DNA of 39,992 bases, from the NCBI GenBank assembly GCA_018816095.1, contig JAHIWP010000019.1, positions 1 to 39,992 on the forward strand, in the 5' to 3' direction. Made by a program: the position numbers and the translations under genes. The DNA comes from Gammaproteobacteria bacterium. GTDB taxonomy: Bacteria; Pseudomonadota; Gammaproteobacteria; Pseudomonadales; Pseudomonadaceae. Below, piece after piece: positions 22,944 to 39,992 of the stretch. Within the stretch, counting starts at the first letter, position 1; each line of letters opens with the position of its first letter. The notes under the pieces were generated by a model. It was not told the origin of the DNA. It saw only the letters and a list, made by a program, of their open reading frames with translations, and made no database searches.

Positions 22944-25358
22944 TTAGAACAGGTCTATCGGCGCAACTTCATCAGCGGGTAGCGGGCTGCCTGGGATGTA
23001 GGTGCCCGGCTCGAACTCACCTATGGGCGGCGGGGAGTCTTCGCTCTTGAAGAGTTCGAAGTAAGCGTTCGGGGTGTCCGGGGAGGCCGCGCGACCGCTG
23101 TGTGGGTCGATGCGCAGGGTCAGTATGCCTTTAGGCTCGGGCAGCACATGGCTGGGTTTGTCCTTCAGTGCCGCGCCCATGTAGCTCATCCAGATCGGCA
23201 GGGCCACGGTGCCGCCATATTCATTGCGGCCGAGGCTTTCCGGTTGGTCGAAACCGGCCCAGACCGTGGTGATGTAGTCCGCGTTATAGCCGGAAAACCA
23301 GCTGTCTTTCGACTCGTTGGTGGTGCCGGTCTTGCCTGCCAAGTCGTCACGACCGAGTGCCAGCGCGCGGCGGCCGGTGCCGCGCTTGATCACATCCTGG
23401 AGCAGGCTGGTCATGATGTAGGCCGTGCGTTCATCGATGACTTGCTCGGCAAGCACTGGCTCAACTGGCGGCTGTGTGTCGCCTGTGCTGAGTTGTGCCG
23501 CATTGCCCTGCTCGGTGCGCAGGGCAATACCCGCTGGCGACTGGGCTGGGTTAGCGTTGAACAGTCGCTTGCCATCACGGCCTTCAATCCGCTCAATCAA
23601 ATACGGCTCGGTTTTGTAGCCGCCACTGGCGAAAACACTCCAGCCCTCGGCGATTTCCATGGGCGTGAGGCTTGCCGTGCCCAGGGCCAGGGAAAGATTG
23701 GGCGGTAGATCCTTTTTCTCAAAACCGAAGCGCTCGATGTAGTTCAGGGTGCTGTCGATGCCGAGGTCTTGCAGTAGGCGAATAGAGACCAAGTTGCGTG
23801 AGCGGTACAACGCTTCACGCAGGCGGATCGGGCCGAGGAAGGTGTTGTTGTCGTTCTTCGGGCGCCAGGTCTGCGAGCGAGGGTCGTCGGCAAGCACGAT
23901 CGGCGCATCGTTGATCAGGGAAGCTGCGGTGTAACCGTTATCCAGCGCGGCGCTGTAAACAAATGGCTTAAAGCTTGAGCCTGGTTGGCGTTTGGCCTGG
24001 GCAGCGCGGTTGTAATTGCTCTGCTCGAAAGAGAAACCGCCGACCAGGGCGCGAATTGCGCCGCTGTTAGGGTCTAACGAGACCAGAGCACTCTGCGCCG
24101 CAGGGAGTTGAACGAAGCGCAGGCTATCGTCTTCTTGGCGCTGCACGCGGATCAGGTCGCCGATCTGGCTAACATCCGCTGGCTGCTGTGGGCGCGGCCC
24201 GAGGCTGTTGGTATTAAGGAAGGGGCGTGCCCATTTCATGCTGTCCCAGGTCACGACGTGTTCTTCGCCGTTACGCAGCAGGACCATGATGCCGCTCTTC
24301 TCGACGCTTGTAACAATGGCTGGGTCTAGGCCGCCGAGTGATGACTGCTTGTTTAGTTCGCTCAACCAATGCTCTTTGGTCATGCCTGGCAGGCGGCTTT
24401 CTGGGCCGCGATAACCGTGGCGTTGATCGTAACTAATCAGCCCTTCACGGACTGCGCTATTGGCGGCCTGCTGCAGGTCGCTGGGCACCGTGGTGGTGAC
24501 GTTAAACCCCTCGGTGTATGCCTCGCTACCATAGCGGCCGACCATTTCAGCGCGCGCCATTTCAGCAATATAGGGTGCTGCCAGTTCGGGTGTAGCTACG
24601 TGGTAGCTAACATTGATCGGCTCAGCCAGCGCCTCTTCATAGCGCTGCTTGTCGATGCGCCCCAGGCTGTACATGCGCCCGAGAATCCAGTCGCGGCGCT
24701 CCATTGAGCGGGCCGGATTGACCAGCGGATTGAAGCGTGAAGGGGCTTTTGGCAGGCCGGCAATCATTGCCATTTGCGCAAGGCTGGTCTCGCGAATGGA
24801 TTTTCCGTAATAAACCTGTGCGGCCGCTTCGATACCGTAGGCACGGTTACCCAAGTAAATCTTGTTCACATAAAGTTCAAGGATTTCGTTTTTACTGAGC
24901 TCCCGCTCAATTTGTAGCGCAAGAAGTATCTCGTTGATCTTGCGTGAAAAACTTTTCTCACTGGTGAGGAAAAAGTTCTTCGCCACCTGCATGGTAATGG
25001 TGCTTCCGCCCGATTGAATCTGTCCGCTTTTCAAGATTTGCGTTGCAGCGCGCATCAGGCTGCTAAGGTCGACGCCATAATGGTTGGCAAAATTGTCGTC
25101 TTCGGCTGACAGCAATGCGCCGATGAAGTCTGGTGGGATATCAGCGAAGGCTATAGGTGAACGACGCATTTCACCGAATTCGGCAATCAGTTTGGCGTCG
25201 CTGCTGTAAATACGCAGGGGAATCTGCAGTTGAATGCTGCGCAACGATTCGACGGACGGTAGGCTGGGGCTAAGATAGAGGAAGGCCCCGCTGAAACTGA
25301 GTACCACCCCACAAAAAACGGCGAGGCAAGACCAGCAAAAAAAACGCAAAAGACGCAT
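22944..25358 (-). CDS. ponA: Penicillin-binding protein 1A
   Basis: Bifunctional class A PBP of 804 residues that polymerises glycan strands and crosslinks peptidoglycan. It has one N-terminal membrane anchor (about residues 5-28), then the GT51 glycosyltransferase domain with LLSAEDDNFANHYGVD, GGSTITMQVAKNFFL, INEILLALQIE and YLGNRAYGIEAAA. A linker/OB-like region follows, and then the transpeptidase domain with the SSFK nucleophile box (QPGSSFKPFVYSAAL), the SRN-type box (YRSRNLVSIRL) and KTGTT. The ATG at 25358 is preferred; a TTG directly before it is also in frame. It is divergent from pilM across a 184-nt AT-rich gap, as in P. aeruginosa. Confidence 0.96.
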   Translation of the reverse strand: MRLLRFFCWSCLAVFCGVVLSFSGAFLYLSPSLPSVESLRSIQLQIPLRIYSSDAKLIAEFGEMRRSPIAFADIPPDFIGALLSAEDDNFANHYGVDLSSLMRAATQILKSGQIQSGGSTITMQVAKNFFLTSEKSFSRKINEILLALQIERELSKNEILELYVNKIYLGNRAYGIEAAAQVYYGKSIRETSLAQMAMIAGLPKAPSRFNPLVNPARSMERRDWILGRMYSLGRIDKQRYEEALAEPINVSYHVATPELAAPYIAEMARAEMVGRYGSEAYTEGFNVTTTVPSDLQQAANSAVREGLISYDQRHGYRGPESRLPGMTKEHWLSELNKQSSLGGLDPAIVTSVEKSGIMVLLRNGEEHVVTWDSMKWARPFLNTNSLGPRPQQPADVSQIGDLIRVQRQEDDSLRFVQLPAAQSALVSLDPNSGAIRALVGGFSFEQSNYNRAAQAKRQPGSSFKPFVYSAALDNGYTAASLINDAPIVLADDPRSQTWRPKNDNNTFLGPIRLREALYRSRNLVSIRLLQDLGIDSTLNYIERFGFEKKDLPPNLSLALGTASLTPMEIAEGWSVFASGGYKTEPYLIERIEGRDGKRLFNANPAQSPAGIALRTEQGNAAQLSTGDTQPPVEPVLAEQVIDERTAYIMTSLLQDVIKRGTGRRALALGRDDLAGKTGTTNESKDSWFSGYNADYITTVWAGFDQPESLGRNEYGGTVALPIWMSYMGAALKDKPSHVLPEPKGILTLRIDPHSGRAASPDTPNAYFELFKSEDSPPPIGEFEPGTYIPGSPLPADEVAPIDLF

Positions 25359-25430
25359 CAAGATTTTTGGATTTCCAGATAAAAGAACGAGTTAAGCGAA
25401 ACATAAGGTTAAAAGAGAAAAACTGATCAC

Positions 25431-38377: not shown

Positions 38378-39805
<1,428 letters not shown>

Positions 39806-39831
39806 TTACCGAGCAGTGAGGTTGCAATAAA

Positions 39832-39862
39832 CAAAGCCAGCCTTAGGGCTGGCTTTGTCGTT
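39832..39862 (+). terminator. gltBD terminator, tail interrupted by intron
   Basis: CAAAGCCAGCC (39832-39842) pairs perfectly with GGCTGGCTTTG (39847-39857) around a TTAG loop, followed by TCGTT. The expected T-run appears cut short where the group II intron begins at 39863. Confidence 0.88.
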
Positions 39863-39992
39863 GTGCGCCAGGCATGGCGCGTTGCGCGCAAGCGCAACCA
39901 GCTTGGCTGTGGTGGCCTCGCTGGTGACTTGGAGGTGAAAGTCCTCTACACACCCGGCAAGGGGAAGTGTTAGCCAGAGGCAAGGGTGTCGC
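39863..39992 (+). mobile_element. 5' end of group II intron, probably class C, cut by window
   Basis: The sequence begins GTGCG, the conserved 5' boundary of group II introns, and folds at once into helices. GCGCC (39865-39869) pairs with GGCGC (39876-39880). GTTGCGC (39881-39887) pairs with GCGCAAC (39892-39898) around a GCAA tetraloop. GAGG (39932-39935) pairs with CCTC (39943-39946) around TGAAAGT. ACACCC (39950-39955) can close with GGGTGT (39984-39989). The GAGGTGAAAGTCCTC stretch is one I recognise from domain I of bacterial group II introns. It begins 5 nt after a terminator stem and points the same way as gltD, the insertion habit of class C introns. The intron-encoded reverse transcriptase/maturase would lie beyond the window. 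Confidence 0.82.

Follow-up and report, generated by a model that had tools for sequence, protein, structure and literature searches.

A very probable terminator-targeting group IIC intron behind gltBD at a contig end of a Pseudomonadaceae genome bin

The gltBD locus and the adjoining intron start

The stretch of DNA analysed here (the window, 39,992 nt) spans all of contig C1 in a 3.53-Mb draft genome bin of 87 contigs, estimated to be 87% complete. Close to its end lie two open reading frames for the large and small subunits of glutamate synthase, which we take to be gltB and gltD, in line with the preliminary description of this sequence. They are followed by an intrinsic terminator hairpin and, up to the last base of the contig, by the first part of what is very probably a group IIC (class C) intron (Table 1). 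The arms of the terminator stem, ACAAAGCCAGCC (39831-39842) and GGCTGGCTTTGT (39847-39858), enclose a TTAG loop, and T-rich tails flank the hairpin on both strands. The preliminary description had reported a perfect stem of 11 bp; the stem is indeed perfect, but its length is 12 bp. The succession of a short tail and GTGCG that it gave is what the sequence reads, with CGTT at 39859-39862 directly after the stem and GTGCG from 39863. The stretch 39400-39862, which includes the 3′ part of gltD and runs to the tail, finds matches in 396 of the 398 sampled genomes of the genus, the own genome counted. Elsewhere in the window, the model of asponA (RF02812), annotated as an antisense RNA to ponA, is matched over its full length by positions 25089-25382 of the forward strand (154.8 bits).

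Table 1 Features at the gltBD end of the window
Feature	Position	Strand	Basis or remark
gltB-like large-subunit glutamate synthase ORF, 1486 aa	33892..38352	+	open reading frame
gltD-like small-subunit glutamate synthase ORF, 472 aa	38387..39805	+	open reading frame
gltBD intrinsic terminator hairpin	39831..39858	.	12-bp perfect stem, sequence and fold
Tail TGTCGTT, probable IBS1, intron -7 to -1	39856..39862	+	pairs with loop AATGACA of relatives
Group IIC intron (very probable), first 130 nt, 5′ end GTGCG	39863..39992	+	cut by the contig end, remainder outside

The element begins with GTGCG, a form of the GUGYG 5′ end, as do all 25 intron 5′ ends of the bin. Folding of the 173 nt from 39820 yields −84.2 kcal/mol against a mean of −68.3 for shuffled sequences (z −3.47; 1 of 200 shuffles as stable), and the predicted fold includes a GCAA loop of the GNRA type and a GAGG...CCTC helix, which bears out the nested helices and GNRA-type loop noticed earlier. 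Since the identical sequence (129-130 nt, 100% identity) recurs at six other contig ends of the same genome, its presence in the window is not due to chance. With the 161 nt from 39832 to 39992 as query, matches at E ≤ 0.001 were obtained in 115 of the 398 sampled genomes, own counted, a figure in which some weaker matches span the terminator alone or short pieces; two places were scored per genome, so that copy numbers from this search are lower bounds. A scan with the Rfam group II models, suggested in the preliminary description, is silent on the window alone, relaxed threshold included, because the window holds only 130 nt of the intron and the domain I-IV model (RF02001), as judged from the full-length relative L091, sets in at intron nt 127; a model of the set (RF00029) does match the partner contig described below.

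The partner contig and the empty site

The preliminary description had expected a domain V/VI followed by hemE beyond the intron, and both are found on a second contig of the bin, C21, which carries hemE and, at its opposite end, a type-2 intron 3′ end (see below). This end comprises a domain V/VI (RF00029, 50.7 bits; cut-off 40) with maturase-like C-terminal codons beside it, and it closes with ...CTCGAT. Its expected order did not hold entirely, since a convergent gene precedes hemE, here and in the relative G108. It is synteny with G108, rather than the assembly, that links the gltD contig to C21. Over the gltD stretch, G108 is the closest relative among the 398 sampled genomes (93% identity), and in it gltD and the same hairpin are followed, without interruption, by the flank known from C21 (an alignment of 1.34 kb with 82% identity that starts 59 nt into the flank). 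The first six bases past the junction are identical in C21 and G108.

The empty site in G108 reads ...TTTGTTGTT/TCTGCT (also written ...GGCTGGCTTTGTTGTT/TCTGCT), with the stroke marking the insertion point, and the filled site reads ...TTTGTCGTT/intron/TCTGCT (also written ...GGCTGGCTTTGTCGTT/intron/TCTGCT). Because G108 carries the uninterrupted site, the insertion is, as judged from the aligned junctions, exact, and the terminator tail is split. A relative lacking the insert provides the comparison that had been proposed, and its junctions agree with the earlier view that the intron split the tail. The domain V search in G108, in which 150 of 216 candidates were scored, returned no match.

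The gene adjoining the junction on C21 is oriented towards gltD and lies between the intron and hemE. The same arrangement is found in G108, where the gene is an intact ORF of 257 aa, with 43 nt between its end and the insertion point. Owing to the T-rich tails on both strands of the hairpin, gltD and this convergent gene probably used one hairpin, and the gltBD terminator is probably bidirectional and common to both. The intron now separates the convergent gene from the terminator hairpin, and the transcript of this gene would run antisense through the intron. In the bin, the convergent gene (L015/C21, about 49-822 of the flank after the intron) contains an in-frame stop, either as a pseudogene or through an assembly error.

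Copies in the bin and their targets

A search of the bin with 39832-39992 returned 26 rows: one is a reverse match of the hairpin, and the other 25 are intron 5′ ends. All 25 of these 5′ ends start with GTGCGCCAGGCATGGCGCG and lie no more than 138 nt from a contig end, and the 24 other starts are 81-100% identical to that of the window, in the case of L080 over 25 nt only. RF00029 likewise gave 26 rows, 25 of them above the family cut-off and all 25 near contig ends. The remaining match, in the interior of contig C74 (L034 1501-1577, minus strand, 39 bits; cut-off 40), may be left over from a different group II intron. Every one of the 25 3′ ends terminates in ...CCTCCTAC(T/C)CGAT, and three types can be distinguished (n = 4, 6 and 15). 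Over 129-130 nt the seven 5′ ends of family A (defined below) do not differ, and the last 60 nt are exactly alike in all six type-2 3′ ends.

Profile searches of the bin with RF02001 and with RVT_1 (PF00078) returned no match, as expected if the interior of a collapsed repeat was omitted, rather than a sign that the reverse transcriptase (RT) is absent. A survey based on RT genes would count zero introns in this genome, because the bin has neither an RT match nor a domain I-IV match. Contig C7 nevertheless has, within its first 246 nt, 57 in-frame codons resembling the C-terminus of the relatives' RT, and two translated examples of the other 3′-end types keep the same frame over about 20 codons.

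In the window and at its 24 sibling sites, the intron is inserted in the sense orientation behind a terminator hairpin. The upstream fold is below −13 kcal/mol at 24 of the 25 sites (L080, −10.8), compared with 10.8% of 3000 random window 40-mers; a threshold of −8 kcal/mol, passed by 51% of random windows, was discarded. The association extends to 67 stretches of named records that were selected solely by the intron start and a TCRTT tail, from Pseudomonas, Stutzerimonas, Halopseudomonas, Halomonas, Chromohalobacter, Rhizobium, Ensifer and other hosts: 65 of them are below −13 kcal/mol upstream, against 11.6% of the 509 TCRTT sites without an intron at the same loci.

The tails divide the introns of the bin into three families. 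Family A (n = 7, the window included) has TCGTT or TCATT throughout (TCRTT, 7/7), family B (n = 3) has TTATG, and family C (n = 15) has TTATG in 11, TTGTG in 3 and TATTG in one case, so that the T-rich tails of B and C end in ATG, GTG or TTG at 18 of 18 sites. We compared the EBS1 loop, which starts near intron nt 220, with the final five bases of the tail in 24 distinct relatives and found pairing at 107 of 120 positions and none at the other 13. Shuffling (n = 2000), which takes the introns as unrelated, gave a mean of 61.7 (sd 5.7) and a maximum of 79, and nine other loop offsets produced no pairing excess. This set was obtained after removal of 17 of 41 rows (10 were duplicates, and 7 were of insufficient length or had N upstream), and it includes twelve distinct loop sequences.

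One of these loops, AATGACA (intron nt 221-227), pairs with the window tail TGTCGTT with one G-U. It is carried by the copy in G138 and by two copies of P. borbori (L124 and L183; = G081), all of which have TCRTT tails and share their first 130 nt with the window copy at 100% identity. Other copies equally identical at the 5′ end have ATGC tails and the loop GTGTT (L087). As copies with the same 5′ end carry either AATGACA or GTGTT, the EBS1 loop evolves more quickly than the sequence around it. In the window copy, EBS1 lies beyond the contig end; from the tail of this copy, we infer that its own loop pairs in the same manner.

The base following the intron is T in 6/6 type-2 and C in 14/15 type-3 3′ ends, as expected of IBS3, and is inconsistent after type-1 ends (2 C, 1 G, 1 T). 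According to a longest-ORF and GC3 heuristic rather than annotation, the gene downstream of the intron is convergent in 12 of the 25 cases (two of them weak) and on the same strand in 13, and the stop codon of seven convergent neighbours lies within about 60 nt of the intron. Taken together, these data lead us to suggest, tentatively and at somewhat less than even chances, that related introns in one genome divided the terminators among themselves through changes of the EBS1 loop and, by inserting in terminators shared by convergent genes, cut these neighbours off, so that their transcripts would run antisense through the intron. With 25 natural sites and three families in one bin, the loop-to-tail rule is testable there.

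Relatives, replication and the reading of the element

Full-length relatives measure about 1.92 kb and were recovered from plasmid NZ_CP083747 (L091) and from the chromosomes of G164 (L088) and G170 (L089). All three carry RF02001, RF01998 and RF00029, and RF02001 is present in 8/8 related loci scanned. The open frames of L091 and L088 comprise 469 codons each, counted from the preceding stop, and match RVT_1 and GIIM but no endonuclease domain, and both exceed the cut-off of TIGR04416; the best solved relative of the L091 RT is the GsI-IIC RT. Reduced copies also occur: that of G138 aligns only to intron nt ~793, that of G005 only to nt ~1240, and that of G382 has an internal deletion with the C-terminal codons kept. 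Two introns of G276 located behind hairpins (L085 903-1577 and L086 3121-2447) are ORF-less class C introns of 675 nt, in which about 216 nt, not alignable with the full-length form, occupy the place of the RT. Copies of ~690 nt in G046 were considered as ORF-less and rejected, given that the one examined (L083) has exactly 100 N in its gap; for this reason G046 is a gapped scaffold despite its single contig.

We determined the orientation of the introns relative to the replication fork in 18 single-chromosome relatives, with dnaA as the origin marker, the point opposite dnaA as the terminus and nine chromosome lengths rounded to 0.1 Mb. Of the 53 hits that span 114 nt or more, 50 are co-directional with the fork and three run against it; for all kept hits the figures are 54 and five of 59. 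G046 contributes 17/17 and G012 12/12 of the longer hits (13/13 of all). Binomial probabilities for 50/53 are 1.3e-5 and 2.5e-4 at assumed backgrounds of 70% and 75%, values to be read with the non-independence of copies from the same genome and the gapped state of the G046 scaffold in mind. Nine of 68 rows were left out of the count, namely those of the multi-contig assemblies G343 (1), G348 (1), G363 (2) and G366 (3), and two of G298 shorter than 32 nt; the G343 row is apparently head-on. In the seven relatives where gltD and dnaA are both listed, gltD, read by hand, is co-directional with the fork (7/7). A bias towards the lagging-strand template is a strong tendency among the relatives, judged against an assumed terminator-orientation background, and would apply to the window through the orientation of gltD only.

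The introns B.h.I1 and GsI-IIC have terminators as their targets, and Robart et al. 2007 is reportedly the original paper on terminator targeting. The intron described here resembles this class in its GTGCG start, its sense insertion a few nucleotides behind a terminator and its probable short EBS1-IBS1 pairing, as do the relatives in the RT without an endonuclease domain (two full-length copies) and the lagging-template bias. It differs from B.h.I1 and GsI-IIC in that 25 5′ ends occur in one bin and that family A has TCRTT tails; in the class C literature searched, this host and the gltBD site were not found, and among the matches listed for class C introns in Pseudomonas no title concerned this intron family.

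Other described systems share some of these features. According to passages of PMC2882425, the introns of Thermosynechococcus elongatus, like those described here, form many copies per genome in families (six) with different targets, and EBS-diverged families are presented as a route of proliferation; they are, however, IIB introns, whereas those of the bin lie behind terminators and are of the class C type. Di.ze.I1 and So.gl.I1 of Enterobacteriales, according to sections of PMC3522654, are class C introns with IBS1/IBS3 behind terminators, as here, but occupy 2 and 3 sites, respectively, in contrast to the 25 5′ ends and three families of the bin. Excerpts of PMC8914252 attribute to RmInt1 of Sinorhizobium an RT without an endonuclease domain and a lagging-template preference, as in our relatives, although its target is the insertion sequence ISRm2011-2 and not a terminator. 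Passages of three publications (PMC4424553, PMC3522654, PMC8919778) describe the insertion of class C introns behind intrinsic terminators, and a passage of the last (PMC8919778) describes their preference for the lagging template; the gltBD intron therefore belongs to a known kind. We accordingly dropped fork orientation as a new observation, that bias being already published for class C introns. What is particular here is the copy number, the family-specific tails and the cut through a probably bidirectional terminator.

Mechanistically, a ribonucleoprotein of the intron lariat and a class C RT would recognise the single-stranded DNA form of the terminator hairpin on the template of the lagging strand, the EBS1 loop would pair with 5-7 nt of the tail, and the intron would reverse-splice into the DNA and be copied from a nascent lagging-strand primer. 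Once resident, it would be transcribed mainly through read-through past the gltBD terminator, yielding the intron RNA, and splicing would restore the terminator tail, as the preliminary description had also envisaged. We propose that harm to the host is small, because transcription would occur mainly by read-through and splicing would restore the tail. Class C introns are seldom transcribed, as stated in portions of two reports (PMC3522654, PMC8919778).

The domain V/VI on C21 and the empty site in G108 substantiate the earlier claim of a class C intron that took the gltBD terminator as its target in the sense orientation, and we are highly confident that the feature is the 5′ end of such an intron. 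The window copy itself may have a whole RT, be ORF-less or be damaged, its interior (EBS1, the rest of domains I-IV and most of any RT frame) being absent from the bin. It could accordingly be a ribozyme that is complete but lacks a functional RT gene and was mobilised in trans by an RT from another locus of the genome. The ORF-less pair of G276, the missing RT interior and the persistence of C-terminal codons in some deleted forms such as that of G382 are compatible with such a copy; on the other hand, C7, another copy of the same genome, retains its 57 in-frame maturase codons, the translated examples of the other two 3′-end types keep their frame, and assemblers drop long repeats with or without an RT, which together make this rather unlikely. 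We consider it considerably less probable still that a 5′ fragment alone, a dead remnant, lies behind gltD and that the 3′ end on C21 stems from another insertion. The contig does end inside the element, and 5′ fragments and internally deleted copies exist in relatives, but the C21 flank is collinear with the post-gltD region of G108, both junctions match the empty site, and the identity among the family-A 5′ ends and among the type-2 3′ ends is that of recent intact copies. An integron attC hairpin as the target, used by a smaller share of IIC introns according to the portion of PMC4424553 consulted, is hardly credible for a 12-bp perfect stem with a T-rich tail directly behind gltD; in G108 this hairpin occupies the same position, intron-free, in an ordinary gltD 3′ region. 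That the sequence is ordinary conserved intergenic DNA, the finding that would have spoken against the preliminary description, can be dismissed for the loci examined, as the intron start GTGCGCCAGGC, searched anywhere in the locus, occurs in 0/29 gltD loci of relatives and related starts lie at 24 other contig ends of the same genome.

With the very probable class C intron repeated in this way, intron ends make up 50 of the 174 contig ends of the bin, and the case shows how such bins break. The domain V search of relatives scored up to 150 candidates per genome, so that its counts are lower bounds; G317, of the same genus (3.3 Mb, 280 contigs, 87% complete), gave at least 17 domain V matches, at least 15 of them above the cut-off, and is a second intron-rich genome of the genus. 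In P. oleovorans DSM 1045, the intron start with TCRTT was found on ten contigs (L126, L129, L136, L141, L145, L149, L151, L157, L173 and L189), nine times less than 180 nt from a contig end and once at 596 nt; since the starts sit near contig ends, this draft was probably fragmented by such introns as well.
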